Positions 40,601-58,928 of a stretch of DNA of 64,000 nt are shown one piece after another. The stretch covers positions 4,287,501-4,351,500 of the forward strand of contig NZ_LT629771.1 in assembly GCF_900105175.1 (NCBI RefSeq). Reading direction: 5' to 3'. A program made the position numbers and the translations under genes. Origin of the DNA: Jiangella sp. DSM 45060 (lineage in GTDB: Bacteria > Actinomycetota > Actinomycetes > Jiangellales > Jiangellaceae). Each line of letters begins with the position of its first letter. Position 1 is the first letter of the stretch. The notes beneath the pieces are model-generated. The model saw only the letters and a program-made list of their open reading frames with translations. It was not told the DNA's origin and ran no database searches.

Positions 40601-41934
40601 GACGAACTGCGCTGGGCGTCGAACGAGGCGCGGCCGGGCCGCTCGTCGATGGGCGCGTAGCCCTCGGACTCGAACGGGTTGGTGTCGTCGCCGGTCGCCA
40701 GGTACAGATTGCCGGCCGCGTCGAAGCTCAGCGAGCCGCCCGCGTGCCCGGACACCGCCCGGTCGACCGGCACCTCCAGCAACTGCACCTCGCTGGCGAG
40801 GTCGAGCGTCGTGCCGGTCAGCGTGAACCGCGACAGCCGCTGCTCGGCCTCCGTGCCGTCCGGCGAATAGTAGAGGTAGAGCCAGCCGTTGTTGACGAAG
40901 TCCGGGTCCAGCGCGATGCCGAGCAGCCCGTCCTCGCGCTGCGTGTACACGTCCAGCGTGCCGACGACGGTCGTCTGGCTGCTCGCCGGGTCGATCATCC
41001 GGACCTCGCCGGCCCGCTCGACGTAGAACACCCGCCCGTCCGCCGCGACGTCCAGCTCCATCGGGTTCGCGGTGCCGGTGTCGAGCGGGACCTTGTCGAA
41101 GCTGTCCCACGACGTGCCGCCACAGTCGGCCGCCGTCGCGCCCGCCGCGGTCTCGATGCCGCCCAGCAGGTGCTGCAGGAACTCCGGCTCGGAGTAGCTC
41201 TCCGTGGTGTGGCCGCCGGCGGTGTACCACGAGCGCCCGCCGTCGTAGGTCTGGCACCAGGCGATCGGGTGGTCCAGGCCCATCGGGTTCGCCTCGGGGT
41301 CGTACGTGCTCTCGTCGAGGCTGGCCAGGACGTGCACGCTGCCGCGCGGGTTGGTGCGGAAGCTGTACCACTCGTCGAAGCGCTGCCAGTCCTGGGGGAG
41401 ATGAGCCGTCGACGGATGGGTGCGGTCGGCGACGGTGACGGTGGCGTCCTGGTTGCGCGGGTGCCCCTGGAAGTAGGCGCCGACCAGCTCGCCGTACCAC
41501 GGCCAGTCGTACTCGGTGTCGGACGCGGCGTGCACGCCGGCGTAGCCGCCGCCCGCTTGGATGTAGCGCTCGAACGCCGCCTGCTGCTCGTCGTTCAGCA
41601 CGTCACCGGTGGTCGACAGCCAGACCACCGCGTCGTACTGGGCGAGGTTCTCGTCGGTGAACGCGGCGGCGTCCTCGGTGGCGGTGACGGTGAACTCGTG
41701 CTCGGCGGCCAGCTGCTGGAGCGCGGCGATGCCGGCCGGGATGGAGTCGTGCCGGAACGCGGCGGTCTTGCTGAACACGAGGATCGAGTAGCCGCCGTGG
41801 CCCGGGTGGGCGCCGGCCACGGGCGCCTGTGCGCCGAGCGCGGCCAGCAGCCCGGCGATCAAGGCGACGACCGCGACGAGGGCGGACGGTCTGCGCGGGT
41901 GCCGGGCGCGCCGGCGTGGTCCGGGCTGAGCCAT
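37627..41934 (-). CDS. Giant secreted ThuA / sugar dehydrogenase / PKD / CBM6 / DUF1349 protein
   Basis: The 1435-residue secreted protein is paralogous to the two at 1-8451. Order: Arg-rich signal peptide (1-42), ThuA (48-273; ILVFSKTAAFRHDSIPAG), GSDH beta-propeller (about 285-715; TRPEIYAMGFRNPFRIEVDG), PKD (about 725-805), a CBM6-like module opening with KLKEAEHFQTMSGI (about 910-1050), a second PKD (about 1055-1130; LTYTWDLGDGTTATGAQ), one DUF1349 (about 1160-1345) and a short helical tail. It is the first gene of a two-gene unit with the glycoamylase-like hydrolase. Two LacI-type palindromes lie about 80-105 bp upstream. It probably oxidises a sugar released from a bound polysaccharide. 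Confidence 0.9.
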   Translation of the reverse strand: MAQPGPRRRARHPRRPSALVAVVALIAGLLAALGAQAPVAGAHPGHGGYSILVFSKTAAFRHDSIPAGIAALQQLAAEHEFTVTATEDAAAFTDENLAQYDAVVWLSTTGDVLNDEQQAAFERYIQAGGGYAGVHAASDTEYDWPWYGELVGAYFQGHPRNQDATVTVADRTHPSTAHLPQDWQRFDEWYSFRTNPRGSVHVLASLDESTYDPEANPMGLDHPIAWCQTYDGGRSWYTAGGHTTESYSEPEFLQHLLGGIETAAGATAADCGGTSWDSFDKVPLDTGTANPMELDVAADGRVFYVERAGEVRMIDPASSQTTVVGTLDVYTQREDGLLGIALDPDFVNNGWLYLYYSPDGTEAEQRLSRFTLTGTTLDLASEVQLLEVPVDRAVSGHAGGSLSFDAAGNLYLATGDDTNPFESEGYAPIDERPGRASFDAQRSSSNTNDLRGKVLRIHPEPDGSFTVPDGNLFAPGTAQTRPEIYAMGFRNPFRIEVDGETGALLVGDYGPDAPQADPDRGTEGQVEWNRITAAGNYGWPYCHGAGPFRDWDFATSTAGPPFDCANPVNDSPNNTGLTQLPPVTAPDIYYGRSETGTNTPEMGTGGGAMAGPVYRYDDALDSDVKWPEYYDGAALFYEWTNTEDGYVRPFDNDVWEFRLDGDAVHDVNPLLTSMDFLRPMDMTFGPDGALYVIEWGTGFGGDNADSGIYRIEYTGVGTRPVAQAAADPTSGALPLTVRFSSDGSGHPSGLPVTYHWAFGDGAESTDPNPEHTYTVAGQYSARLTVTADDGATRSQTVQITAGNTAPEVTLDPPADGGFFDFGDDIAYGIDVTDAEDGSTGDGISCDGVDLQVLFGHAGHAHPVEVLPGCEGAVATSTDAGHPAGEDLFWVLEARYTDQGGAGVGALTGRDLHVLQPKLKEAEHFQTMSGIQLEATSDPRGGRQNIGFIDDGDYISYDPMNLAGIDAITYRFASGGSGGRIEIRSGAPDGPLVGDSGFIEPTGGWQSWKDVTVPVEDPGGTHELFFVFRHEPGSTGLFNLNYLKFRGKGVSVDARPEIWSVEATPPSGELPYEVTLSAEATDPEGQDLTYTWDLGDGTTATGAQVTHTYELSGVYRPTVTVTDAAGSAAHDSVRVEAVPQASPPIECADPGSDPAPDDEFDGDRLDGCRWDAVVRPDLNRFRVEGGQLKIDTTPTNLFDQHNNAPNLMLQTMPEGDWVVETRVSGDVCERWQQGGLLVYESDQTFLKLDYVGTSPVGEPCARKIEMRHEIDDIFQPAFPEVTLPDGVTTWWLRLEKSGSTYTGYYSADGVTFEQVGVIENDRLATADVGLYAFGQEQTQATTVAFDWFHVLESGPPDACPDSDESPTVVIRDVDSGVTNHERADGCTVEDLIEDEKEWPNEGRFLMHVRSVTQHLVHDGVLTRTERAAVIDAAARS

Positions 41935-46876: not shown

Positions 46877-46895
46877 TTAGGTTAGGCTATTCTCG
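46877..46895 (+). promoter_or_regulatory. Iron box (IdeR/DmdR1 type) upstream of the Fe(III) ABC transporter
   Basis: TTAGGTTAGGCTA is a perfect match to the first 13 positions of the 19-bp consensus; the right-hand end (TTCTCG) is degenerate. It lies 37-55 nt before the binding-protein start, where a repressor would block transcription when iron is sufficient. Confidence 0.7.
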
Positions 46896-46931: not shown

Positions 46932-47975
46932 ATGACCCGCCGCCGCTCCCGCACCGCGCTCGCCGCCGGCCTCGTGGCCGCTGTGCTCGGCCTCACCGCC
47001 TGTTCCGACGACGGCGCGGAGCCCGACGCCGTCGCGGGCGCCTCCGACGACGCCCTGGTCGTCTACAACGCCCAGCACGAACAGCTCACCCAGGAGTGGG
47101 CCGACGCCTTCACCGACGAGACCGGCATCGAGGTCGTCCTGCGCAACGGATCCGACTCCGAACTGGGCAACCAGCTGGTCCAGGAGGGCGACCAGTCGCG
47201 GGCGGACGTGTTCCTCACCGAGAACTCCCCCGCCATCTCGCTGGTCGAGAACGCCGGCCTGCTGGCGCCCGTCGACCAGACCACGCTGGACCAGGTGCCC
47301 GCACAGTACCGGCCCTCGTCGGGGCGGTGGACCGGCATCGCGGCCCGCTCGACCGTCTTCGTCTACGACCCGGACGAGCTGACCGAGGCCGAGCTGCCCG
47401 CGTCGATCACGGACCTCGCCGGACCCGCGTGGAAGGGCCGCTGGGGCGCGGCGCCGGGCGGTGCGGACTTCCAGGCGATCGTCTCGGCGATCCTGGAACT
47501 CGAGGGCGCCGACGCCACCAGCGCCTGGCTGGACGGCATGAAGGACAACGCCACCGTCTACCAGAACAACATCGCGACCATGAAGGCCGTCAACGCCGGC
47601 GAGATCCCGGGCGGCGTCATCTACCACTACTACTGGTACCGCGACCAGGACGGCACCAAGGAGAACAGCGGCAACACCCAGCTGCACTACTTCCGCAACC
47701 AGGACCCGGGCGCGTTCGTCAGCGTCTCCGGCGGCGGCGTCCTCGCCTCCAGCCAGAACCAGGACGACGCGCAGGCCTTCCTGGCGTTCCTCACCGGCAG
47801 CACCGGCCAGGAGATCCTCGGCACCGGCTACAGCATGGAGTACCCGGTCGCGAGTGGTGTCGCCGCCAACCCCGCGCTGCCGCCGCTGGACACCCTGCAG
47901 GCGCCGCAGGTCGACCCGTCGGCGCTCAACAGCGTCGAGGTCACCGATCTGATGACGGACGCAGGGCTGCTCTAG
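46932..47975 (+). CDS. Fe(III) ABC transporter substrate-binding lipoprotein
   Basis: The 347-residue precursor has a lipoprotein signal (AAGLVAAVLGLTAC) and the FbpA/SfuA-type binding fold: LVVYNAQHEQLTQEWADAFT near the N-terminus, LFLTENSP-like segment, and IYHYYWYRDQDGTK with the clustered Tyr residues that usually ligate Fe(III). It captures ferric iron for the permease that follows by 10 bp. The upstream iron box supports an iron substrate. Confidence 0.9.
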   Translation: MTRRRSRTALAAGLVAAVLGLTACSDDGAEPDAVAGASDDALVVYNAQHEQLTQEWADAFTDETGIEVVLRNGSDSELGNQLVQEGDQSRADVFLTENSPAISLVENAGLLAPVDQTTLDQVPAQYRPSSGRWTGIAARSTVFVYDPDELTEAELPASITDLAGPAWKGRWGAAPGGADFQAIVSAILELEGADATSAWLDGMKDNATVYQNNIATMKAVNAGEIPGGVIYHYYWYRDQDGTKENSGNTQLHYFRNQDPGAFVSVSGGGVLASSQNQDDAQAFLAFLTGSTGQEILGTGYSMEYPVASGVAANPALPPLDTLQAPQVDPSALNSVEVTDLMTDAGLL

Positions 47976-47985
47976 GGGTCACACC

Positions 47986-49542
47986 GTGACCGTCACCTCC
48001 GTCCAGACACCGCGCCGCGCGGGCGGGGCGTCGCGCCCGCCGGTCGCGCTGGTCGTCGTCGCGGCGGCGCTGGCGGCCGTCCTGCTGGTGCCGCTCGGCT
48101 ACGTCGTCTCCGTCGTCCTCGACGTCGGCTGGGACACGCTGGAGCCGCTGATCTTCCGGCCGCGGGTCGGCGAGTTGCTGGTCAACACGGTTCTGCTCGT
48201 CGTGCTGGGTGTGCCGCTGACGGTGCTGCTGGGGGTCGGCGGGGCGTGGCTGGTGGAGCGGACGACGCTGCCGGCGCGGCGGTTCTGGGCGGTCGTGCTG
48301 GTGGCGCCGCTGGCGATCCCGGCGTTCGTGAGCAGCTACGGGTGGGCCAGCGCGGTGCCGTCGATCCACGGGCTCGGCGGCGGCCTGCTGGTGTCGGTGC
48401 TGGCGTACTACCCGCTGGTGTACCTGCCGGCGATGGCGGCGATCCGCGGGCTGGACCCGGCTCTGGAGGAGTCGGCGCGCTCGCTCGGGCTGGGCTCGTG
48501 GGCGGTGTTCGGGCGGGTCGTGCTGCCGCAGCTGCGGCTGGCGATCCTGGGCGGCGGGCTGATCGTCGCGTTGCACCTGCTGGCGGAGTACGGGGCGTTC
48601 GCGTTCATCCGGTTCGACACCTTCACCACGGCGATCGTCGTGCAGTACCAGTCGACGTTCGCCGGTCCGGCGGCCGGCGCCCTTGGCGTCGTGCTGTCGG
48701 TGCTGTGCCTGTCGCTGCTGATCGCCGAGGCGGGCGCGCGCGGGCGGGCCCGGTATGCCCGCATCGGGTCGGGCGCGGCGCGGACGGCGGTGCCGCAGCG
48801 GCTGGGGGCCTTCACGCCGCTGGCGCTGCTCGGGCTCGCCGCGCTGGGCGTCGCCGCCGTCGCCGTCCCGCTGGCCAGCGTCGTGCGCTGGCTGGGGCGG
48901 GGTTCCGGCTGGACCCAGCCGGAACTGCCGTCGGCGCTGACGCAGACGGTGCTGCTGGCCGGCGGCGGCGCGCTGGCCGCCGTGCTGGTGGCGCTGCCGC
49001 TGGCCTGGCTGACGGCGCGGCACCCCGGCCCGCTGGCCCGGCTGCTCGAGGGCACGTCGTACGTCGCCGCGAGCCTGCCCGCGATCATCGTCGCGCTGGC
49101 CCTGGTGACGGTGACGCTGCGGGTGCTGCCGGGGCTGTACCAGACGGCGTTCACCGTCGTGCTCGCGTACGTCATGATCTTCCTGCCGCGGGCGCTGGTG
49201 CCGCTGCGCTCCGGCATCGCGCAGGCGCCGGTGGCGCTGGAGGAGATGGCCCGCTCGCTCGGGTACCCTCCGCTGCTCGCGCGGCTGCGCGTCACCGTGC
49301 CGCTGCTGGTGCCGTCGCTGGCGGCGGGGGCCGCGCTGGTCGGGCTCGGCGCCGCCAACGAGCTGACGGCGACGCTGCTGCTCGCGCCGAACGGCACCCG
49401 GACGCTGGCGACCCAGTTCTGGTCGCAGGCCTCGGCGATCGACTACCCGGCGGCCGCGCCGTACGCCGTCCTGCTGATCCTGCTGTCGGTGCCCGCGGTG
49501 GCGCTGATGTTCGCCCAGTCACGGAGGTGGGGGGCCCGATGA
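47986..49542 (+). CDS. Fe(III) ABC transporter permease, fused double domain (FbpB type)
   Basis: The 518-residue membrane protein has about twelve spans in two homologous halves, each with the EAA loop that docks the ATPase (EESARSLGLGSWAVFGRVVL and EEMARSLGYPPLLARLRVTV). It starts with GTG at 47986 and overlaps the ATPase ATG by 4 nt at 49539-49542. Confidence 0.92.
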   Translation: MTVTSVQTPRRAGGASRPPVALVVVAAALAAVLLVPLGYVVSVVLDVGWDTLEPLIFRPRVGELLVNTVLLVVLGVPLTVLLGVGGAWLVERTTLPARRFWAVVLVAPLAIPAFVSSYGWASAVPSIHGLGGGLLVSVLAYYPLVYLPAMAAIRGLDPALEESARSLGLGSWAVFGRVVLPQLRLAILGGGLIVALHLLAEYGAFAFIRFDTFTTAIVVQYQSTFAGPAAGALGVVLSVLCLSLLIAEAGARGRARYARIGSGAARTAVPQRLGAFTPLALLGLAALGVAAVAVPLASVVRWLGRGSGWTQPELPSALTQTVLLAGGGALAAVLVALPLAWLTARHPGPLARLLEGTSYVAASLPAIIVALALVTVTLRVLPGLYQTAFTVVLAYVMIFLPRALVPLRSGIAQAPVALEEMARSLGYPPLLARLRVTVPLLVPSLAAGAALVGLGAANELTATLLLAPNGTRTLATQFWSQASAIDYPAAAPYAVLLILLSVPAVALMFAQSRRWGAR

Positions 49543-50589
49543 CCACACTGTCGCTGACCGGCGTCGCCAAGTCGTTCGGCCGGGTCGAGGTGCTGCGGGA
49601 CGTGTCGCTGACCGTGCCGGCCGGCACCCGCACCGCCGTCGTCGGCGCGTCCGGCAGCGGGAAGAGCACGCTGCTGCGGCTGATCGCCGGCTTCGAACGG
49701 GCCGACTCCGGATCGATCGGCCTCGGCTCGACGACGCTGGCCGCGCCCGGGCGGTTCGTCGCCGCCCACCGCCGCGGCATCGGCTACGTCGCCCAGGACG
49801 GCGCGCTGTTCCCGCACCTCACCGTCGAGCAGAACGTCCGGTTCGGGCTGCCCCGGCGCCGCCGCGACCCCGGCCGCGTCCGGGAGGTCATGGAGCTGGC
49901 GTCGCTGGACCCCGAGCTGGCCGGGCGGTACCCGCACCAGCTGTCCGGAGGACAGCAGCAGCGGGTCGCGCTGGCCCGCGCCCTCGCGCCCCGTCCCGCC
50001 GTCGTCCTCCTCGACGAGCCGTTCAGCGCCCTCGACACCGGCCTGCGCGAGCAGACCCGGCAGGCCGTCATCGACGCGCTCGAGGCCAGCGGCGTCACCA
50101 CCGTGCTGGTCACGCACGACCACGACGAGGCGCTCTCGTTCGGTGGGCAGATCGCGGTCATCGCCGCGGGCCGGCTGGTGCAGTCCGGAGCGCCGGCGGC
50201 CGTGTTCGACAACCCCGTCAGCACCGATCGCCGCCTTCCTCGGCGCGGCGATCGTGCTGCCCGCGGCAGTGGCCGACGCCGGCGGCGTCGACTGCGCCCT
50301 CGGCCGGGTCGCCGTCCGGCACGACCGCACCGGCGGATCGGCGGCCGGTGGCCGGGTGCTGCTGCGGCCGGCGCAGCTCGGGATCGGCCCCGCCAACGGC
50401 ACCCACAACGCCGTCGTCGAGGACGTCCGCCCGCGGGGGTCGCACGCCGAGCTGCTACTGCGCACCGCCGGGGCGGCGCCGGTGCTGATCCCGCTGCGGG
50501 TGCCGGCGCACGAGGGCTCCGGCTACCACGCCGGCATGCCCGTCTCCGTCACCGTCACCGGCGGCGGGGTGCTGTACCCGGCCGGGTGA
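49539..50589 (+). pseudogene. Fe(III) ABC transporter ATPase (FbpC type), disrupted by a frameshift near 50210-50225
   Basis: The first frame has an intact ABC domain: Walker A VVGASGSGKSTLLRLIAGF, Q-loop YVAQDGALFPHLT, signature PHQLSGGQQQRVALARAL, Walker B VVLLDEPFSALD, H-loop VLVTHDHDEALSF. After AAVFDNPV the family continuation (APIAAFLGAAIVLP, then a TOBE-like domain with VLLRPAQLGIG and VPAHEGSGYHAGMP, ending GVLYPAG at 50589) is found only in the +1 frame. The original frame runs on into an Arg-rich nonsense tail to 50621. One extra base, perhaps in the CCCC run near 50214, would explain this. The ATPase core could still work, or the indel may be a sequencing error. Confidence 0.8.
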
Positions 50590-50601
50590 CGGCACGCAGG
50601 G

Positions 50602-50613
50602 TAGATTGTCTCA
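50602..50613 (+). promoter_or_regulatory. Leaderless-type promoter of the YezG-like gene
   Basis: TAGATT (50602-50607) is followed by 6 nt and then the ATG at 50614, the TANNNT-N6-ATG layout of actinobacterial leaderless genes. No Shine-Dalgarno is present. Confidence 0.5.
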
Positions 50614-51150
50614 ATGGATGACGAGGCGGCGGCGATGGCCGCGATCGAGCGGATCATGGCCAAGGAGAACCAGCGCCAGGCCGACCAGACCACCGACGAC
50701 GACGGGCGGCCGCTTCCCCGGCTCGACCTCGACGACCCGGCGGCGACGGACGATCCGTTGCTGCGGGTGGGCTATGCACTGCTCCCGCACCTGCCCGGCG
50801 GCTGGCTCACGGCCGTGCTGAACGTCGCCGCGGCGGCCGACGACGTCCGAACCTGGGCCATGGTCACGAAGCCCGGCGTGGGACCGTCCCGCTACGAGCA
50901 CCTGCGCTACCTGCCCGACGTCGCGGCGGAGGCGGCGGCACTGCGCCGGTCGATGTACGACCCGAGCCGCGGCGCCTGGTACAACCTCATGCTCCGCCTC
51001 AACGCCAACGGCACCCTGGTCACCCGTTTCGACCACGACGGGCCGCCGTTCCTGCATTGGGGCGCGCGCGAGGTCGAGCTGGTCAGACGCGACCAGCAGC
51101 TGTTCCCACGGCCGTTCGACCGGCTCGCCACCTGGCACCCAGCCCGCTGA
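50614..51150 (+). CDS. YezG/DUF600-like (immunity-protein-like) protein, tentative
   Basis: The 178-residue soluble protein has an acidic N-terminal helix (MDDEAAAMAAIERIMAKENQ). Its C-terminal half, with WYNLMLRLNANGTLVTRFDH and FPRPFDRLATWHP, resembles YezG-type immunity/antitoxin proteins. No toxin or polymorphic-toxin gene is adjacent, so it would be an orphan. Its last 68 bp (51083-51150) overlap, in antisense, the end of the convergent adenylation/acyltransferase gene. Assignment rests on general pattern only. Confidence 0.6.
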   Translation: MDDEAAAMAAIERIMAKENQRQADQTTDDDGRPLPRLDLDDPAATDDPLLRVGYALLPHLPGGWLTAVLNVAAAADDVRTWAMVTKPGVGPSRYEHLRYLPDVAAEAAALRRSMYDPSRGAWYNLMLRLNANGTLVTRFDHDGPPFLHWGAREVELVRRDQQLFPRPFDRLATWHPAR

Positions 51151-53659
51151 CCAGCCCGGCGCACCACCAGAGGGCCACGCCGGCGGAGAGGGAGGCGACG
51201 ACGGCGAGGACGGGGTGGACGTCGACGAGGCGGGGGTAGACCTGCCAGTGGGTGAGGTAGATGTACAGCGAACCGCCCGCCAGCGCGCCCACCACCCGGT
51301 GCAGCGGCGCCGGGCACGGCACCGTCGCGGCCCACACCAGCAGCGCCACCCCGGCGACGATCGCCAGCTCGCGCGCGGGGTTGCCGAAGAACCCGGGCAC
51401 CGTCGCCACCAGCACCACCGTCAGCCCGGCCCGCTGCCACCACACCGACGCCCGCGCCGCCGCCCACCCGAACGCGAACAGCCAGAACACCGGCATGGTG
51501 TGCGGCACGCCGAGGTCGACCACCTCGTACCGCCCGAGCAGCCCGAACCCCAGCAGCACGACCGGGAACGCGAACGGGAAGCGCCGCTCCAGCCGGTCGA
51601 CGAACGGGACGGCGAGCAGGGCGGCCAGCACGACGAGGATGTAGACCAGCACCTCGACGAACCAGAAATGCCAGTCCGACGTCCACGACGGCGGCCCGAA
51701 CAGCCCGTTGAGCAGTAGCACGTTCAGCGGCCCGTACTGGTCGGTGAGCAGCACGACACCGCCGATCCAGGCCACGCTGGGGACGACGATCCGCGCGACG
51801 CTGACCGCCTGCTGCCGTAGCCGCGTCACCCGGTCGGCGGCGGTCAGGCGGAACCGGGCGAACCCGAACCCGGCCGCCGCCACCAGCACGTGCGCCCCGC
51901 CGAGCAGCGTGAACAGCCCGGCGTGCGTGCCGACGACGCCGACGATCGCCAGGGCCCGCAGCGCCACGCCGGTCTCGACGCAGCGGACCCGCCACCGCCC
52001 GCGAGCGGCGACGGCGGGCGCGGCGGCCAGCTCGCGGATCGGCGTCACGTGCCAGTTCGCGGGGACGACGCCCAGCTCGTCTTCCAGCCGGATCGACACC
52101 TCGACGTAGGACAGGGAGTCGCCGCCGAGGCCGGTGAAGGTGCTGTCGAGGGTCGCGTCGGGGCGCCCGAGCAGGTCGGCGTAGAGCGACCGCAGCCGCT
52201 CCGGCAACGGCCCGGCGGCGGCGTCCGGCGGCCCGGCGGGCGCTGCCGCCGCGGCCCGCACCAGCTGACCCAGCGCCGGGTGGTCGACCTTCCCGCTGGC
52301 CAGCCGCGGTGTCTCCGCGACGGTGACGGCGGCGGCCGTGACGGCGCGCGCGGGCAGCCCGAACCGTCCGGCGATCTCGTCGCGGACGGCCGAGGGCTCC
52401 GCGCCGTCGACCGCGACCAGCAGCTCGCCGTCCGTCCCCGTGCACCGGACAGCCACCCCGGGACGGGTCAGCGCGGCCTCGACGTGGGCGAGGTCGACCC
52501 GCAGCCCGGCGATCTTCACGAACCGGCTGCGCCGCCCGACGATCTCGTACAGCCCGCCGGTGCGCCGGGCGAGGTCACCGGTGTGCAGCGCGGTGACGGT
52601 GCGCCCGAGCGCGAGGTCGGCCGGCGACGTCGCGTACCCGAGCATGACGTTCGGGCCGTGGTAGACGAGCTCGCCGACGTCCGGCGACGTCGCCTCGGGC
52701 GCGGGCACAAGGGTGAACGAGCCGCCCGGGATCGGCACCCCGACGGCCGACGGATGCTCGGCGGCCAGCGATGGCGGCAGGTACGCCATCCGCGCGGTCG
52801 CCTCGGTCTGCCCGTACATGACGACGAGGTCCCACCCACCCCGCCGCCCCAGCTCGGCGTACCGGCGCACGTGCGCCGGGTCGAGCCGCCCGCCGGCCTG
52901 TGTGACGTACCGCAGCCGCGGCAGCCGCATGCCGGCGAACCCGACGCGGTCGAGCAGGTCGAACGTCAGCGGCACCCCGGCCAGCGTCGTCGCGCCCTCG
53001 GCCCGGAACAGGTCCCAGAAGCAGGCGTCGGCGACGGAGAGGTCGGTGAGCACGACGGCCGCACCGGCCAGCAGGTGCGTGTTCACGACGGACAGTCCGT
53101 ACACGTAGTGCATCGGCAGCGTCGTGATCGCGCGGTCGGTGTCGCGGATGCCCAGGAACGACACGATCGACTCCGCGTTGGCCTGCACGTTCTCGTGCGA
53201 CAGCCGGGCCAGCTTGGGCGATCCGGTCGACCCGGACGTCGGCATCAGCAGCGCCAGCTCCGGGTGCGGCTCGTGCGCGGACCCGTCCCGCCGCACGTCC
53301 AGCTCGCCGCCGGACAGCAACACGGCGTCGGGGTCGTAGGCGGCCGCGACTGCGCCGGCCTGCGCGGGCGGAACCAGCAGCGCGACGTGGCCGGCGGCCA
53401 GCGCGGCAAGGTAGGTGACCAGCGACGTCGCGTCGTTCGCGGCGCTGACGAGCACCAGCTTCCGGCCGTCGCCGAGCCGCCGCGCCGTCGCGCCGACGCG
53501 CTGGGCCAGCTCGCGGTAGATCCAGCGCTCGGCGCCGGCGACGACGGCGAGCCGGTCGCCGTGACGGGCGAGGTCGCGCGCGAACGGGACCGCCGCGGGC
53601 GCCGCCCCCGCGGGCGCCGCCCCCGCGGATCTCCGGGGCGGCGGCAGGACGACCGTCAT
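51083..53659 (-). CDS. Adenylation - carrier protein - membrane acyltransferase fusion
   Basis: The 858-residue protein joins three modules. Residues about 20-475 are an AMP-forming adenylation domain (LMPTSGSTGSPKLARLSHEN; VVMYGQTEATARM; LHTGDLARR; FVKIAGLRVDLAHVE; RLASGKVD). Residues about 490-560 are a carrier domain with the phosphopantetheine Ser in LGGDSLSYVEV. From about 570 to 858 there are eight to ten membrane spans of an acyltransferase-3/OafA-like domain (ALAIVGVVGTHAGLF; SDWHFWFVEVLVYILVVLAA). The HYVYGL core favours a carboxylic or fatty acid over an amino acid. One chain could thus activate an acyl group, hold it as thioester and transfer it across the membrane, like DltA-DltC-DltB in one protein. 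An iron box precedes it. Confidence 0.85.
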   Translation of the reverse strand: MTVVLPPPRRSAGAAPAGAAPAAVPFARDLARHGDRLAVVAGAERWIYRELAQRVGATARRLGDGRKLVLVSAANDATSLVTYLAALAAGHVALLVPPAQAGAVAAAYDPDAVLLSGGELDVRRDGSAHEPHPELALLMPTSGSTGSPKLARLSHENVQANAESIVSFLGIRDTDRAITTLPMHYVYGLSVVNTHLLAGAAVVLTDLSVADACFWDLFRAEGATTLAGVPLTFDLLDRVGFAGMRLPRLRYVTQAGGRLDPAHVRRYAELGRRGGWDLVVMYGQTEATARMAYLPPSLAAEHPSAVGVPIPGGSFTLVPAPEATSPDVGELVYHGPNVMLGYATSPADLALGRTVTALHTGDLARRTGGLYEIVGRRSRFVKIAGLRVDLAHVEAALTRPGVAVRCTGTDGELLVAVDGAEPSAVRDEIAGRFGLPARAVTAAAVTVAETPRLASGKVDHPALGQLVRAAAAAPAGPPDAAAGPLPERLRSLYADLLGRPDATLDSTFTGLGGDSLSYVEVSIRLEDELGVVPANWHVTPIRELAAAPAVAARGRWRVRCVETGVALRALAIVGVVGTHAGLFTLLGGAHVLVAAAGFGFARFRLTAADRVTRLRQQAVSVARIVVPSVAWIGGVVLLTDQYGPLNVLLLNGLFGPPSWTSDWHFWFVEVLVYILVVLAALLAVPFVDRLERRFPFAFPVVLLGFGLLGRYEVVDLGVPHTMPVFWLFAFGWAAARASVWWQRAGLTVVLVATVPGFFGNPARELAIVAGVALLVWAATVPCPAPLHRVVGALAGGSLYIYLTHWQVYPRLVDVHPVLAVVASLSAGVALWWCAGLVSGLGARWRAGRTAVGTAAGRV

Positions 53660-53681
53660 GTCCGCCCCCAGCGCCGTCCGA

Positions 53682-53700
53682 TAAGGCGAGCCTTACCTTA
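53682..53700 (-). promoter_or_regulatory. Iron box (IdeR/DmdR1 type) upstream of the adenylation/acyltransferase gene
   Basis: Read on the minus strand, TAAGGTAAGGCTCGCCTTA matches about 14 of 19 consensus positions and keeps the dyad (TAAGGC...GCCTTA). It ends 23 nt from the start codon, so iron repression is likely. Confidence 0.7.
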
Positions 53701-53736: not shown

Positions 53737-56700
53737 CTACCCGGTCGTGACGGTGACCGGGGCGGACGCCGGGCCGGCCAGCGCCGGACGGCCCGGGTCG
53801 GGCTCGGCGAACGCGTACACGCGGAACGCGTACGCCGTCGCCGGCGCGAGGCCGGTGACCTCCAGCGACGTCGCGTCCGCGCCGGTCCGGCCGGCCAGCG
53901 TCCACAGTTCGGTCCCGGCGGCGCGCACCTCGACGTCGTAGCCGTCGGCGCCGTCCGCCGCGGCCCACGAGACCAGCGCCGACGCCGGGCCGGACGCCTG
54001 CGCCGTCACGTCCGCCACCGCGCCGGGTACCGCGTCGCGGGTGACCATGATCGCGTCGGCGATGACGAACCCGTCCGCCGCGTTGGACAGCTCCACCCGC
54101 CCGGCCGCGCCCGCCTCGAACCGGAACGCGCCGAGGTCCACCCAGACCGCCGGCCGGTCGTCGCCGACGACCCGGCCCTGGCCGCGCTGGTCGACGCGGA
54201 CCGTCGTCGCGCCGTCGGCGTGGCGGACGGTGAACGGCGCGTCGGAGGCGCGGTTGGCGTGCGCGACGGTCCTGGCGAGCACGTGGTACTCCCCCGTGAC
54301 CGGGACGTCGACCTGCCAGCCGGCGACGCGGTCGCCGGTACCGGCCGGCGCGGACCGGTAGCTGACGCCGTAGTACGGGTGGCCGGCCTGCCCGGTCGCC
54401 CGGCTCCACGTGCCGGTCATCCGGAAGGCGCCGACCGACTCGTCGTCGACCACGACGTCGCGGTGCGCCTCGTCGGACGGGTGCTCGGCGGCGATCAGCG
54501 TCAGCTCGTCCGGCGCGATCGTCGTGCCGCCGAGCCGGCCGGGCTCGAGCAGCGTGAACCGGATCCGGTGCAGGCCGCGGCCGAGCGCGACGGTGCCGTG
54601 CTGGTAGGTCTGGTAGGCCGAGCCGGTGTCCAGGCTCGGGTCGAGCACACCGTCCGGCAGCGGCCGTCCGTCGATGCTGACCTCGATCCGGCCGGCATCC
54701 TGACCGCGGGCGTACCGCACGGCGACGTCGAACGCGCCCTCGTCGCGGGCCAGGCGGAACGGCAGCTCCAGGTAGTCGCCCGGGCCGGTCGCGGCGTACG
54801 TCAGGGCGGCGCCGCCGCGGGCGTTCTCGTCTTCGACGGCCTCGGGCCGTGGCCACGCGACCCGCTCGCGCACGGTCTCGTCCAGCGGCAGGTGGACGAC
54901 GGCGCCGGCGGCACCGTCCGCGGCGCGCGACGCGGCCAGGGCCGCGATCTCGTCCGCCGTCAGCACCCGGTCGTACAGCCGGACCTCGTCGACGCCGCCG
55001 GTGAGCCGGTTCGCGCCGTCCGGCCGCTGCCCCACGTGGATGCCCTCGCGGGCGCTGAACGCGAGGTCGCCGGTCGGGGACGCCGCCTGGGCGACCCGCA
55101 CGCCGTCGACGTACAGCTCGATCATGCCGCCGCCGCGAGTCAGGGCCGCGTGGTGCCATGCGCCGTCGGCGTAGGCGCCGGGCGCGCTGAGCGACGCCGT
55201 CGCCTGGCCGGTGTCGACCAGCGCCTGGAGGCGGCCGTTGCCCGGCTCGGCACGTAGCCACCACTGCGGCGTGGCCGAACCCCAGCCGTACGCCCAGAGG
55301 ATCGACTGGGTGTCCTGGCCGCTGGTGCGGAACCAGGCCGACGCGGTGAACGTGTCGCCGGCGGCGCGGACCGCGTCGGTCGCGGGGAGCTCCAGGGCGT
55401 CGTCGCCGTCGAGCGCGAGCCCGCCGTCGTCGGCGGCCGGAGCGCCGGTGACGACCGCGTCGTTCCCGCCCGCGACGTCCGGACTGACGGTCTGCGTGGC
55501 CGGCTCCCCGGCGGGCGGGCGGACCTTCGCCCCCGCGGTGTCGCCGAGCTCGACGGCGTGCTCGGCGAGGTCGCCGCCGTCGCGGCCGTTCGTCAGCCAG
55601 GCGAGGTCGAACCGAGCCATCACCAGCCGCGCGGGCGAGCCGAGGATCTCGCCGTCGCGGCCGTAGAACAGCAGGATCGTGCCGTCGGACAGCACCGCGA
55701 GGTCGGAGTAGTACGACGGCCCCGGGTTGACGATGGTGTCGTAGCGGTAGGTCGCGCCGTCGTCGTAGCTGACGGAGACGGTGAGCGCCTCGCGGCGGGC
55801 GGAGTCCGGGCGGGCGTGCAGCAGCCGGCTGACACCGTCGGGGCCGTCGAACCGCAGGAACCCGGCGTCGACGGCGGTGTACCGGCCGGTCGCGGGCTCG
55901 AGCACCGGGTCGGACCAGGTCTGCCCGCCGTCGGTGCTGACGGCGCTGATCCGCTGCCGGTGCCCGCCCGCCGCCGACCGCCCGTTGACGACGACGGCGC
56001 CGTCGCCGCGATCGTAGACGCGGCTCTCGTTGATCGGGTAGTTGACGTCGACCGGGATCGGCTCGCCCGCCTGCCAGCTGGCGCCGTGGTCGTCGCTGTA
56101 GATCACCGAGACGCCGTACAGCCGCTCCGGTGTGGTGTGGCCGACGACCTCGCGGCGGTGCAGCACCTGCATGACCAGCCGGCCGTTCTCCAGCTGGATG
56201 CCGTGGCCGGGGCCCGGTCCGTGCAGCGTCCAGCCGTACGGGTTGCCGGCGAACAGCTCGTCCAGCTCCACCGGCGCGCTCCACGTGACGCCGTCGTCGG
56301 CGCTGCGGCTCAGGTAGAGCTCCTGGCGGTCGCCGGAGCAGCCGGTGTTGCCCGGGTCCAGCAGCGACAGGCCGAAGAACAGGAAGATCTCGCCGGTTTC
56401 CTGGTCCACGACCGGCGTCGGGTTGCCCCACGACTGCCCGTCGACGGACGGGACGACGATGCGGCTCGGCTCCCAGCTGTCGCCGCCGTCCGTGCTGCGG
56501 CGCAGGACGATGTCGCGCGGCCCGGCGTCGCAGACCTCGTGGCGGCCCTCGGTGAACGCCAGGATCGTGTCCGACGGCGTCACCGCGAGACCCTGCACGT
56601 GGTAGCTCTCGTGCGGGCCGGCCGCCGAGTCCCACAGCACGGTCTCGTCGAACGTGCCCGGCCGGTCAGTCGCTGTGGCTGTTGTGGCCGACGTGACTGG

Positions 56701-57057
56701 CGTCATGGATGGGGCCGAGGTGATCGCCGAGAGTGGCGAGGCGACCGTGCTGGCGGGCAGCCCACCCGCGAGCCCCGCCGTCGCCGGAGCGGCGGCCGCC
56801 GCCGAGGTCGCTCCCAACGTCAGGACGGCGACGAGCGCCGCCGCCGTCCGCACCGCCGGGCTCCACCGGCCCGCCGTCCGCACCGTCCGGTTCCGACCAC
56901 CCGGAGACCGGCCCGCCGCCGGGTCTCGCCGGTCCGACACGCGACCCCGGCTCGCCGCCGGGTCCCGCCGGTGCGACACGCGACCCCGGCCCGCCGCCGA
57001 GTCCCGCCGGTCCGAGCCGTCCCGCCGGCCCGCCGCCCGCCACGTCCACCCTCGCAC
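53737..57057 (-). CDS. Large secreted sialidase-like (BNR/Asp-box) protein with LamG and Fn3 modules
   Basis: The GTG at 57057 lies 4 nt after AGGAGG; an alternative GTG at 56883 would give a conventional short signal peptide, so the start is uncertain. After three 13-residue Arg-rich repeats comes the signal (AVRTAAALVAVLTLGATSAA). A six-bladed sialidase-type propeller (first 500 residues or so) has Asp boxes STDGGDSW, SADDGVTW, SDDHGASW, STDGGQTW. Then follow a LamG module (ASAWFRTSGQDTQSILWAYG), a GBVS/golvesin-type region and a C-terminal Fn3 domain. FTEGRHE and the Asp of DAGPRD are kept, but the N-terminal RIP-motif Arg is replaced (YHVQGLAVTP), so true sialidase activity is doubtful. 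Confidence 0.82.
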   Translation of the reverse strand: MRGWTWRAAGRRDGSDRRDSAAGRGRVSHRRDPAASRGRVSDRRDPAAGRSPGGRNRTVRTAGRWSPAVRTAAALVAVLTLGATSAAAAAPATAGLAGGLPASTVASPLSAITSAPSMTPVTSATTATATDRPGTFDETVLWDSAAGPHESYHVQGLAVTPSDTILAFTEGRHEVCDAGPRDIVLRRSTDGGDSWEPSRIVVPSVDGQSWGNPTPVVDQETGEIFLFFGLSLLDPGNTGCSGDRQELYLSRSADDGVTWSAPVELDELFAGNPYGWTLHGPGPGHGIQLENGRLVMQVLHRREVVGHTTPERLYGVSVIYSDDHGASWQAGEPIPVDVNYPINESRVYDRGDGAVVVNGRSAAGGHRQRISAVSTDGGQTWSDPVLEPATGRYTAVDAGFLRFDGPDGVSRLLHARPDSARREALTVSVSYDDGATYRYDTIVNPGPSYYSDLAVLSDGTILLFYGRDGEILGSPARLVMARFDLAWLTNGRDGGDLAEHAVELGDTAGAKVRPPAGEPATQTVSPDVAGGNDAVVTGAPAADDGGLALDGDDALELPATDAVRAAGDTFTASAWFRTSGQDTQSILWAYGWGSATPQWWLRAEPGNGRLQALVDTGQATASLSAPGAYADGAWHHAALTRGGGMIELYVDGVRVAQAASPTGDLAFSAREGIHVGQRPDGANRLTGGVDEVRLYDRVLTADEIAALAASRAADGAAGAVVHLPLDETVRERVAWPRPEAVEDENARGGAALTYAATGPGDYLELPFRLARDEGAFDVAVRYARGQDAGRIEVSIDGRPLPDGVLDPSLDTGSAYQTYQHGTVALGRGLHRIRFTLLEPGRLGGTTIAPDELTLIAAEHPSDEAHRDVVVDDESVGAFRMTGTWSRATGQAGHPYYGVSYRSAPAGTGDRVAGWQVDVPVTGEYHVLARTVAHANRASDAPFTVRHADGATTVRVDQRGQGRVVGDDRPAVWVDLGAFRFEAGAAGRVELSNAADGFVIADAIMVTRDAVPGAVADVTAQASGPASALVSWAAADGADGYDVEVRAAGTELWTLAGRTGADATSLEVTGLAPATAYAFRVYAFAEPDPGRPALAGPASAPVTVTTG
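56910..57026 (-). repeat. Three tandem 39-bp repeats encoding Arg-rich 13-mers
   Basis: Units start at 56910, 56949 and 56988 with few mismatches. In the sialidase-like frame they encode RRDSAAGRGRVSH, RRDPAASRGRVSD and RRDPAAGRSPGGR, just before the signal peptide. They may be translated or belong to the leader, depending on the true start. Confidence 0.75.
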
Positions 57058-57192
57058 GCCGCCTCCTAATACGTATAAATAGGATGCGGACGACGTTACC
57101 GGGACGCTTCGGACCGGAGCAATGGCTCGCTCGCGCACCGACCGGGGTGCGGCTGAGCAGCGGTCACCTCGCAGCGGTGACCGGATTCGCCA

Positions 57193-57606
57193 TCAGGAGG
57201 CGGCGCAGCGCGGGCAGGTGCCGAAGATCTCCAGCGTGTGCGACACCTCGGAGTAGCCGTGCTGGTCGGCGACGGACTTGGCCCAGCGCTCGACCGTGGG
57301 GCCGGCGATCTCGACCGTGGCGCCGCAGGACCGGCAGACCAGATGGTGGTGGTGCTCCTCGCGGACGCAGCGCCGGTAGACCGCCTCGCCGGCGTCGGAG
57401 CGGAGGACGTCGACCCGGCCATCGTCGGCGAGGGTCTGCAGGGTGCGGTAGACGGTGGCCAGTCCGACGCCGGCGCCACGGTCGCGCAGCAGGGCGTGCA
57501 GCTCCTGGGCGCTGATGAAGTCCTCGGTCTCGTCGAGCACCTCGTCGACAGCGGCGCGCTGCCGCGTCCGGCGGTGCTCCTTGGCCGGCTGTTCGCGTAC
57601 CGTCAC
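57193..57606 (-). CDS. zur: Zinc uptake regulator, Fur family
   Basis: The 137-residue regulator has an N-terminal winged helix (AAVDEVLDETEDFISAQELH; GLATVYRTLQTLADDGRVDV), the metal-site EEHHHHLVCRSCGATVEI and a second Cys pair FGTCPRCAAS at the C-terminus that holds structural zinc. The GTG start has GGGAG 9 nt upstream. It is divergent from znuACB, and inverted repeats in front of both units fit Zur autoregulation and repression of zinc uptake. Its identity as Zur and not Fur rests on this context. Confidence 0.93.
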   Translation of the reverse strand: MTVREQPAKEHRRTRQRAAVDEVLDETEDFISAQELHALLRDRGAGVGLATVYRTLQTLADDGRVDVLRSDAGEAVYRRCVREEHHHHLVCRSCGATVEIAGPTVERWAKSVADQHGYSEVSHTLEIFGTCPRCAAS

Positions 57607-57901: not shown

Positions 57902-57931
57902 TTGACAATGGTTGTCAGTCTTGATGAGAAT
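57902..57931 (+). promoter_or_regulatory. znuA promoter with overlapping Zur box, leaderless layout
   Basis: TTGACA (57902-57907), an 18-nt gap and GAGAAT (57926-57931) end 7 nt before the znuA ATG. The dyad TGACAATGGTTGTCA (57903-57917) overlaps the -35 box and matches the usual actinobacterial Zur-box form, so zinc-bound Zur should shut the promoter. Confidence 0.7.
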
Positions 57932-57938
57932 GTGTCCC

Positions 57939-58928
57939 ATGAAGAACCGTCGTGCGGCGATGGCCGCGTTGAGCACCGCCGCCCTCGCCGGGCTCGTCCT
58001 CTCGGGCTGCGGCGACGACGCCGGCACCGCGAGCGGCGGCGACGGCCTCACCGTCGCCGCGTCGTTCTACCCACTGGCGTTCGTCACCGAACGTGTCGCG
58101 GGCGACCACGCCACCGTCGACAACCTCACGCAGGCCGGCGGCGAGCCGCACGACCTCGAGCTGACCGCCCGCCAGGTCGGCGAGATCTCCGACGCCGACC
58201 TCGTCGTCTACCTGGCCGGGTTCCAGCCGTCCGTCGACGAGGCGGTCGAGCAGAACGCCGAGGACCGCGCCGTCGACGTCGCGGGCCTGGTCGAGCTGCT
58301 CGACGAGCCGGAGCACGGCGACGAACACGAGGACGAGCACGGCGACGAGCACGAGGACGAGCACGCCGACGAGGAGAGCCACGAGGGCCACGACCACGGC
58401 GACCTCGCCGGCGACCCGCACATCTGGCTCGACCCCACGAACCTCGAGGCCATCGCGTCCGCCGTCGCCGACCGGCTGGCCGAGGCCGACCCGGACAACG
58501 CCGACGACTACCGCGCCAACGCCGACGCCCTCAACGCCGATCTGCAGGAGCTGGACCAGGAGTTCGAGACCGGCCTGGCGCAGTGCACGCAGCGGGTGTT
58601 CGTCGTCGCGCACGAGGCGTTCGGTTACCTCGCGCACCGGTACGACCTCGAGCAGATCGGCATCTCCGGCATCGACCCGGAGGCGGAGCCGTCGCCGGAA
58701 CGGCTGGCCGAGGTCCACGACGTCGTGCGGGAGCAGGGCGTCACGACGATCTTCTACGAACGCCTCGTCAGCCCGGACGTCGCCGAGACGCTGGCCGGCG
58801 ACCTCGGTGTGCAGGCCGCGGTGCTCGACCCGATCGAGGGCCTCACCGACGACACCGCCGACCAGGACTACTTCAGCCTGATGCGGGCCGACCTCGAAGC
58901 GCTGCGCGCCGCCAACGGGTGTACGTGA
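57939..58928 (+). CDS. znuA: Zinc ABC transporter substrate-binding lipoprotein
   Basis: The ATG at 57939 is chosen over an upstream in-frame ATG inside the Zur box. The 329-residue precursor has a lipobox (GLVLSGC, Cys24) and cluster A-I fold. Zinc ligands: His71 (GEPHDLEL), His161 (GDPHIWLD), and the His of VVAHEAFGYLAHRY. Between residues 125 and 155 is a His/Asp/Glu loop (EHGDEHEDEHGDEHEDEH), the zinc-collecting loop typical of ZnuA. It delivers Zn(II) to ZnuBC. Confidence 0.95.
   Translation: MKNRRAAMAALSTAALAGLVLSGCGDDAGTASGGDGLTVAASFYPLAFVTERVAGDHATVDNLTQAGGEPHDLELTARQVGEISDADLVVYLAGFQPSVDEAVEQNAEDRAVDVAGLVELLDEPEHGDEHEDEHGDEHEDEHADEESHEGHDHGDLAGDPHIWLDPTNLEAIASAVADRLAEADPDNADDYRANADALNADLQELDQEFETGLAQCTQRVFVVAHEAFGYLAHRYDLEQIGISGIDPEAEPSPERLAEVHDVVREQGVTTIFYERLVSPDVAETLAGDLGVQAAVLDPIEGLTDDTADQDYFSLMRADLEALRAANGCT

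Follow-up and report, generated by a model that had tools for sequence, protein, structure and literature searches.

An adenylation–carrier–acyltransferase-3 fusion protein with a putative iron box adjoins an SfuABC-like ferric importer in Jiangella and is very probably its partner in other Actinomycetes

Introduction

The SfuA and FbpA proteins handle bare or weakly complexed Fe(III), and the usual view of the SfuABC/FbpABC importers of Gram-positive bacteria is that they carry bare iron; we know of no explanation for how insoluble Fe(III) gets to these Gram-positive systems. Here we analyse a 64,000-nucleotide stretch of Jiangella sp. DSM 45060 (contig NZ_LT629771.1, positions 4,287,501 to 4,351,500; hereafter the window), in which an SfuABC-like importer lies beside the gene for a single protein composed of an adenylation (A) domain, a carrier (T) domain and an acyltransferase-3 (AT3) membrane domain. 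On balance, and by a modest degree, the comparisons below favour reading this A-T-AT3 fusion as an iron-starvation-induced, membrane-anchored acylation machine that is an accessory of the importer.

Several described systems share features with this locus. DltABCD, as generally understood, also activates an acyl group, carries it and transfers it across the membrane; it uses separate proteins, D-alanine and the MBOAT protein DltB, whereas the fusion is one protein, contains AT3 and lacks the aspartate at GrsA position 235 that is expected of DltA and of non-ribosomal peptide synthetase (NRPS) A domains. Pfam finds no MBOAT match in the fusion or in 37 full-length relatives. Aas-type acyl carrier protein ligase/phospholipid O-acyltransferases are likewise ligase-acyltransferase fusions, and the A domain matches them in NCBIfam. 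These matches cover the ligase part only, reaching at best 86 bits against an equivalog cut-off of 1221 bits, and Aas-type fusions are understood to carry a PlsC-type transferase, unlike the fusion studied here.

The AT3 enzymes OafA/OafB, OatA and Oac share with the fusion an R-x10-H motif, RXXR and the Pfam match. In the available portions of PMC7448272, R/K-x10-H in the first transmembrane helix is the AT3 hallmark, R14, H25 and the RXXR pair of OafA are essential, and the architectures named are AT3-only and AT3-SGNH, whereas in the fusion AT3 is preceded by an A and a T domain of the same protein. AT3 enzymes are chiefly described, as far as the same sources extend, as extracytoplasmic carbohydrate acyltransferases (PMC7448272, PMC9833829), and they are proposed to act with acetyl-coenzyme A (acetyl-CoA) entering the membrane domain, acetyl-CoA being the putative donor of OafB (excerpts of PMC9833829). 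In VinN, whose substrate is beta-methylaspartate, the second carboxylate of the substrate is proposed to be held by Arg331 and Ser299, and its amine by Asp230 (excerpts of PMC7756342, PMC11253843 and PMC12186527). A DmdR1-controlled acyltransferase step in iron acquisition is also described in DesG/DesH of desferrioxamine B. DesH is a small DesC-like acyltransferase for which the available text describes no A, T or AT3 domain, and the accessible section on the Streptomyces coelicolor DmdR1 regulon mentions no A-T-AT3-like enzyme (PMC12161575). Identity of the fusion gene with DesG/DesH is rejected on domain architecture as far as that partial text gives it, no search having been aimed at DesG (PMC12161575).

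SfuABC, YfuABC and FbpABC have a binding protein and a tyrosine pair like those of the window importer. The excerpts available on SfuABC elsewhere mention no acyl-activating enzyme alongside, whereas in Actinomycetes one frequently adjoins. A homologous transporter of Mycobacterium smegmatis, msmeg_3633-3636, serves low-iron growth when both siderophores are missing (PMC6684656, available in part), a result in favour of an iron function for SfuABC, and one showing that SfuABC has already been described without the fusion. Expression of msmeg_3635 and msmeg_3636 is upregulated under citrate (PMC10597346, available in part). Within the accessible part of PMC6684656 msmeg_3630 is named only in a figure legend, and a literature search for msmeg_3632 found nothing; the M. 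smegmatis literature thus yielded no evidence that the fusion matters. Among the papers listed by an open-access literature search, none was relevant to the fusion architecture or to its link to SfuABC.

Results

The fusion gene occupies positions 51083..53659 of the minus strand (858 aa, ATG at 53659), as delimited by its open reading frame, Pfam matches and homologues. A first-pass annotation, made from the letters of the window, had read it as adenylation, carrier and OafA-like acyltransferase domains in one polypeptide, and Pfam, the sequence motifs and the 37 aligned full-length relatives bear this out. The A domain (about residues 20-475; 52235..53602, minus strand; Pfam, alignment) gives an AMP-binding match of 1.1e-42 and contains TSGSTGSPK (141-149), MYGQTEA (281-287), HTGDL (359-363), GRRSRFVKIAGLRVD (375-389) and Lys457; the hallmarks of ANL enzymes (the TSGSTGSPK loop, the GD and GRxSR motifs and the A10 lysine) are all present. 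The T domain (residues 487-531; 52067..52201, minus strand; Pfam, alignment) has a PP-binding match of 8.9e-09, with Ser515 in LGGDSL as the phosphopantetheine site. The AT3 domain (about residues 560-840; 51140..51982, minus strand; Pfam, alignment) matches Acyl_transf_3 (PF01757) over residues 567-832 at 2.6e-07, its 30.5 bits lying slightly below the 31-bit gathering score. By alignment its characteristic residues are Arg568-x10-His579, RVTR at 610-613, WF at 666-667, GW at 731-732, Tyr801 and His804. A crude hydropathy plot did not resolve ten helices in the AT3 region, and a PDB sequence search with this domain found no AT3 relative.

Among the 37 relatives, Pfam (E≤0.001) detects AMP-binding in 37, PP-binding in 36 and Acyl_transf_3 in 34. 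K457 and S515 are invariant in all 37, as are R568 and H579 of the AT3 hallmark, and the second arginine of RXXR is at least 90% conserved in the same alignment. Pfam finds no condensation domain, as a classical NRPS would have, in the fusion protein. We regard the A-T-AT3 chemistry as likely. Since an A and a T domain precede AT3 in the same polypeptide, its acyl donor is probably a carrier-tethered thioester.

The full-length fusion is a single-copy gene in the genome, which was searched as one contig of 7,485,957 bases; two further places match the A domain only. The nearest named homologues are from J. alba (93% identity) and J. muralis (91%). At least 5048 homologues score E≤0.001 among 7995 candidates, and the best 120 of the 5048 are 832-948 aa long, with a precomputed AT3 domain found by reading in 108 of them. 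The first-pass annotation had proposed looking for the fusion in relatives, which we did in 393 genomes sampled from the whole class, each with a completeness of at least 90% and 20 of them from the window's own family. A threshold of E≤1e-60 gave 70 genomes, from which five with an A domain only (G151, G085, G293, G127 and G098) were dropped; split matches were merged, and G136 and G144, whose matches end at about residues 549 and 512 in a frame of more than 950 aa, were kept. The fusion is therefore present in 65 of the 393 genomes. An assembly artefact is ruled out as its source, because the full fusion occurs in these many genomes as well as in many listed homologues.

On the plus strand, beyond the 3' end of the fusion gene, lie genes for an SfuA-like ferric-iron-binding protein with the lipobox LTAC (46932..47975; Pfam and PDB matches), an SfuB-like permease with two BPD_transp_1 stretches (47986..49542; Pfam) and an SfuC-like ATPase (49539..50621; Pfam). 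The best PDB matches of the SfuA-like protein, over its mature length, are YfuA (1xvx, 438 bits), a ferric iron-binding protein (8k7n) and SfuA (1xvy). With a binding protein that has the tyrosine pair, a permease and an ATPase, the unit 46932-50621 has the composition of SfuABC and is predicted to act in transport. Its SfuA-like protein is the only close copy in the genome, two other matches being weak. The pair Tyr233-Tyr234 is kept in 35/35 SfuA-like proteins linked to the fusion, and His49 in 19/19 of the SfuA clade; in a second clade (n=16) the latter position holds 11 Asn, 3 Ser, 1 His and 1 Gly. We take the tyrosine pair and His49 to correspond to Fe ligands of FbpA. The absence of any other siderophore biosynthesis gene from the window, as first reported, holds for the 25 window proteins scanned; the adjoining ferric importer with its own iron box (see below) had been overlooked.

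An SfuA-like protein (E≤1e-35) is encoded in 113 of the 393 genomes. It accompanies the fusion in 64 of 65 genomes and is found in 49 of the 328 without it, so that 64 genomes have both, one the fusion only, 49 SfuA only and 279 neither. Counted by hand per genus, SfuA occurs in 24/24 genera with the fusion versus 25/99 without. The two genes lie within 6 kb in 49 of the 65 genomes, in four arrangements: SfuA is upstream of the fusion on the same strand in 21, downstream on the opposite strand in 11, upstream on the opposite strand in 9 and downstream on the same strand in 8. In 15 of the 16 unlinked genomes SfuA is encoded elsewhere, in some perhaps separated by contig breaks only. Across the 35 SfuA-linked loci (34 on named contigs plus the window) the permease is present in 34 and the ATPase in 33, with gaps at contig ends (L031, L072). 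Of the genomes behind the 26 named loci with no SfuA in view, 14 were examined and SfuA is encoded in 13 of them, among these Nocardia (8/8); in one of the 13 (L053) permease and ATPase adjoin the fusion where a contig end cuts the locus, and in L047 the SfuA match is weak (33%).

Recording the neighbours of the architecture across genomes was also proposed at first pass. By eye, with most neighbours unannotated, sfuABC is the sole gene set recurring adjacent to the fusion across genera. The same kind of inspection found no consistent partner gene around orphan or proteobacterial fusions. One broad neighbour family occurs in 18 loci, A-only loci included, and never adjoins the fusion unit. We hold the partnership of the fusion with SfuABC to be very probable. 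Since SfuA often occurs without the fusion, and the fusion without SfuA in only 1/65 genomes, the fusion has the look of an optional addition by which the importer is improved or redirected.

The promoter of the fusion gene contains a putative IdeR/DmdR-type box, TAAGGTAAGGCTCGCCTTA (53682..53700, minus strand), which matches 17 of the 19 positions of TWAGGTWAGSCTWACCTWA, the sequence that we take to be the IdeR/DmdR-type iron-box consensus. The box had been placed upstream of the gene at first pass, and it does lie there, ending 22 nt 5' of the start codon. It is the sole site in the window at ≤3 mismatches, and 100 shuffles gave none. A weaker IdeR-type box (46877..46895, plus strand; 15/19) precedes sfuA. 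The whole genome (7.49 Mb) has 12 sites at ≤3 mismatches to the assumed consensus, the reversed-pattern control having 0, and the box of the fusion is one of four with 2 mismatches. Another of the four, at 7,197,671, is about 4 kb from the genome's two matches to NRPS-independent siderophore (NIS) synthetases (IucA/IucC). These matches lie about 2.8 Mb from the fusion gene, which has no such synthetase match beside it. The remaining 2-mismatch sites are at G000:C1:902280 and 3071989.

We then scored the 300 bp 5' of the fusion and of sfuA in 60 loci (59 named plus the window). A box of ≥14/19 precedes the leading gene in 34/34 sfuA-linked loci, compared with 5/572 control promoters of the same loci. 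In co-directional operons the box stands before sfuA in 12/12 and before the fusion in only 1/12; in all 22 other sfuA-linked loci it stands before the fusion. The shuffles, the genome-wide scan and the conservation across loci rule out a chance occurrence. As far as the boxes show, the iron control suggested at first pass thus gains support from all 34 linked loci, and they point to IdeR/DmdR1-type control of both the fusion and sfuABC.

A quick-method tree of the fusion (60 rows, the 59 named loci plus the window; SH-like approximate likelihood ratio test values only) suggests that pairing with SfuA is varied. Partial loci (L070, L077, L078 and L079) were excluded from the tree and six short-flank loci from the change counts. 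At least 11 changes of arrangement are needed, and the state of the partner (SfuA, second clade or none) changes at least 8 times, counts which do not separate gain from loss. The two SfuA-like clades are about 35% identical to each other and 65% and 62% identical within. Jiangella has the SfuA clade in convergent orientation, and its sister Phytoactinopolyspora the second clade in co-directional orientation; in two Phytoactinopolyspora loci (L022 and L074) SfuA and the permease are upstream on the fusion strand, and the ATPase is downstream on the opposite strand. Within Jiangella the fusion is found in 9 of 12 genomes, all nine with a nearby SfuA at least 86% identical, and the three fusion-less genomes (G006, G008 and G011) are without that protein, only a 36% relative being present in G006.

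The likely substrate was approached by mapping pocket positions through alignment of the A domain to VinN and LgrA. VinN (3wvn) is the top PDB match of the A core among solved structures, and the A and T part together match NRPS didomains such as LgrA. The position of GrsA Asp235 is Val186 in the window protein, and that of GrsA 331 is Arg290. Across 240 homologues (the best 120 from each of two homologue lists) position 235 is Cys in 225, Val in 11, Asp by pattern in 2 (perhaps misread) and not found in 2, whereas the Arg331 equivalent is kept in 240/240, as it is in 37/37 of the alignment. The fusion shares with VinN this arginine and a bulky residue at 236; VinN has Asp230/235 for the amine, Ser299 and a short loop, all of which the fusion lacks, and the fusion has its T domain and transferase fused to the A domain. 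Of the three VinN residues proposed to contact the substrate only the arginine is kept, and the A domain does not fit the VinN type. Since Asp235 is missing and the VinN-like Arg331 is invariant, the substrate would be a carboxylic acid lacking an α-amino group, and perhaps, as a tentative suggestion falling somewhat short of an even chance, a dicarboxylate. The acid is probably a common metabolite, because no gene besides sfuABC recurs adjoining the fusion across genera.

Among A-only relatives, that of L080 (8915-13723) has as neighbours genes for a carrier-like protein, for an acyl-protein synthetase resembling LuxE and for a reductase resembling LuxC, and that of L081 (2240-3223), in a Nonomuraea locus, lies near a polysaccharide-synthesis gene. 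These surroundings do not fix the identity of the acid.

Discussion

Sequence comparison supports the architecture, the SfuABC partnership and the iron boxes, and the following course of events would be consistent with them. At low iron an IdeR-type repressor would leave the boxes before the fusion gene and sfuABC. The A domain, to judge from its motifs, would adenylate a common non-α-amino carboxylic acid, possibly a dicarboxylate, and load it onto the arm of the T domain, which would offer the acyl group to AT3 from the cytosolic side in place of acyl-CoA. AT3, in keeping with the biology of these enzymes, would transfer the group to an acceptor that lies at the membrane or on its far side. 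The acylated product, either a group on the wall or a lipid or else a small ester or amide that is released, would hold or mobilise Fe(III) near the SfuA lipoprotein. The substrate, the nature of the acceptor and the effect on uptake are what we infer here. That the product serves the iron supply to SfuA seems to us slightly the better supposition, and the chances of a released and of a surface-bound product are about even. With the SfuABC partner in view, the acylation of a surface or secreted molecule first proposed for this protein becomes an acylation step probably serving ferric-iron import.

Modification of the envelope as such, with the acid placed on a wall glycan, teichoic acid or lipid so that its fixed negative charge concentrates Fe(III) near SfuA, would agree with the extracytoplasmic carbohydrates that AT3 domains typically acylate (PMC7448272 and PMC9833829, available portions), and the Arg331 position would suit a second carboxylate. 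However, no wall or lipid gene recurs adjoining the unit (by eye, most neighbours being unannotated), and we consider this account unlikely, if a serious contender. The carbohydrate activity mainly described for AT3 in those same portions (PMC7448272, PMC9833829) speaks against a different proposal, in which the fusion is a one-protein siderophore synthase that joins an acid to a common polyol, amine or hydroxy acid and so makes a small diffusible Fe(III) ligand, to be harvested by SfuABC or its lipoprotein. A self-contained maker of this kind would be expected to have sfuABC as the only recurring neighbour, as was seen by eye; the iron box at the leading promoter of all 34 linked loci would also be expected, and a polycarboxylate pocket would suit a chelating acid. 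Yet no exporter gene recurs adjoining the unit by the same inspection of largely unannotated neighbours, and the iron that SfuA/FbpA proteins are known to handle is bare or weakly complexed Fe(III), which makes a dedicated siderophore synthase quite unlikely in our view.

The near-perfect dependence of the fusion on SfuA, the frequent linkage of the two and the LTAC lipobox would be explained if the fusion acylated the SfuA lipoprotein or its lipid anchor and thereby matured or activated the importer, but 49 of the 113 SfuA genomes are without the fusion and it is accompanied by two SfuA-like clades of only about 35% identity, so that such a maturation role is very unlikely. Dlt-like aminoacylation of wall polymers with D-alanine or another amino acid, iron starvation being a mere stress signal, is highly improbable: the Dlt-like logic noted at first pass stands for the order of activation, carriage and transfer, which is that of DltA-DltC-DltB as generally understood, and for the match of the A and T part to NRPS didomains, but fails for substrate likeness, since the lack of Asp235 disfavours an amino acid, the transferase is AT3 instead of MBOAT and the partner is an iron importer.

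Returning to the fusion as an iron-starvation-induced accessory of SfuABC, a number of observations weigh against it. The association of fusion and SfuA has a Fisher p of about 4e-41 with kinship ignored, and the genome-wide partner search covered SfuA, not SfuB or SfuC. In one genome (G155) the fusion is present but no SfuA passes the cut-off used, and Ensifer has a 37% relative of the fusion and encodes no SfuA; the fusion enzyme can therefore act in another setting. Conversely, the importer does not need the fusion, because 49 genomes have an SfuA-like protein without it, and the M. smegmatis transporter is a three-gene operon (msmeg_3633/3635/3636) in the accessible part of PMC6684656. SfuA is out of view in all 19 full-length Nocardia loci included in the tree. 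Where sfuA is not in view, a box of ≥14/19 precedes the fusion in only 12/26 loci (Nocardia 8/19, others 4/7), and two linked loci (L030 and L067) score no higher than 14-15/19, with 14/19 before the fusion. As regards the pocket, the fusion has no counterpart of VinN Ser299, and its loop does not show the one-residue shortening seen in VinN. The Arg331 equivalent is also present in 15/15 A-only relatives (a count that leaves out L070 and L077, fusions cut by contig ends) and hence marks a wider subfamily. Finally, our searches found no assay or expression data on any member of the fusion family.

The system is made of known parts (an ANL enzyme, a carrier, AT3 and SfuABC), and there is a real chance that it represents an undescribed route feeding iron to SfuABC. 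Somewhat less than evenly probable is the broader possibility that A-T-AT3 and SfuABC form an undescribed four-gene iron-acquisition module across Actinomycetes, the product of which would be a minimal Fe(III) ligand, either set free or attached to the envelope, for an importer hitherto classed as siderophore-independent. If so, the single membrane-bound enzyme of the module would need no acyl-CoA, NRPS or NIS line, and some 'siderophore-free' Sfu uptake would actually be ligand-assisted. A co-regulated enzyme that activates and transfers acyl groups is a concrete candidate for the delivery of Fe(III) to SfuABC. AT3 would gain a donor logic based on a tethered carrier thioester as opposed to acyl-CoA, one that the excerpts cited above do not mention, and a role would be given to many database entries labelled only 'AMP-binding protein' or 'non-ribosomal peptide synthetase'.

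Other features of the window

Between sfuC and the fusion lies a plus-strand gene (50614..51150) for a 178-aa protein without a family match, which overlaps the 3' end of the fusion gene tail to tail. In six other named Jiangella loci this protein is full-length in 2, partial in 2 and absent from 2. Directly upstream of the iron box of the fusion gene, the minus strand (53737-57138) encodes a 1133-aa BNR/sialidase-like protein with laminin-G, golvesin-C and Fn3 domains. Further along are a Fur-family regulator (57193-57606), which scores below the cut-offs of the Fur, PerR and Zur models that it matches, and, divergent from it, a gene for a ZnuA-type zinc-binding protein (57912-58928); the iron box thus has another metal-uptake locus within 4 kb. 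Elsewhere in the window, two very large proteins with ThuA, sorbosone-dehydrogenase, PKD, CBM6 and GH43_C2 domains in similar order are encoded about 30 kb apart, at 2683-8451 and 37627-41934.

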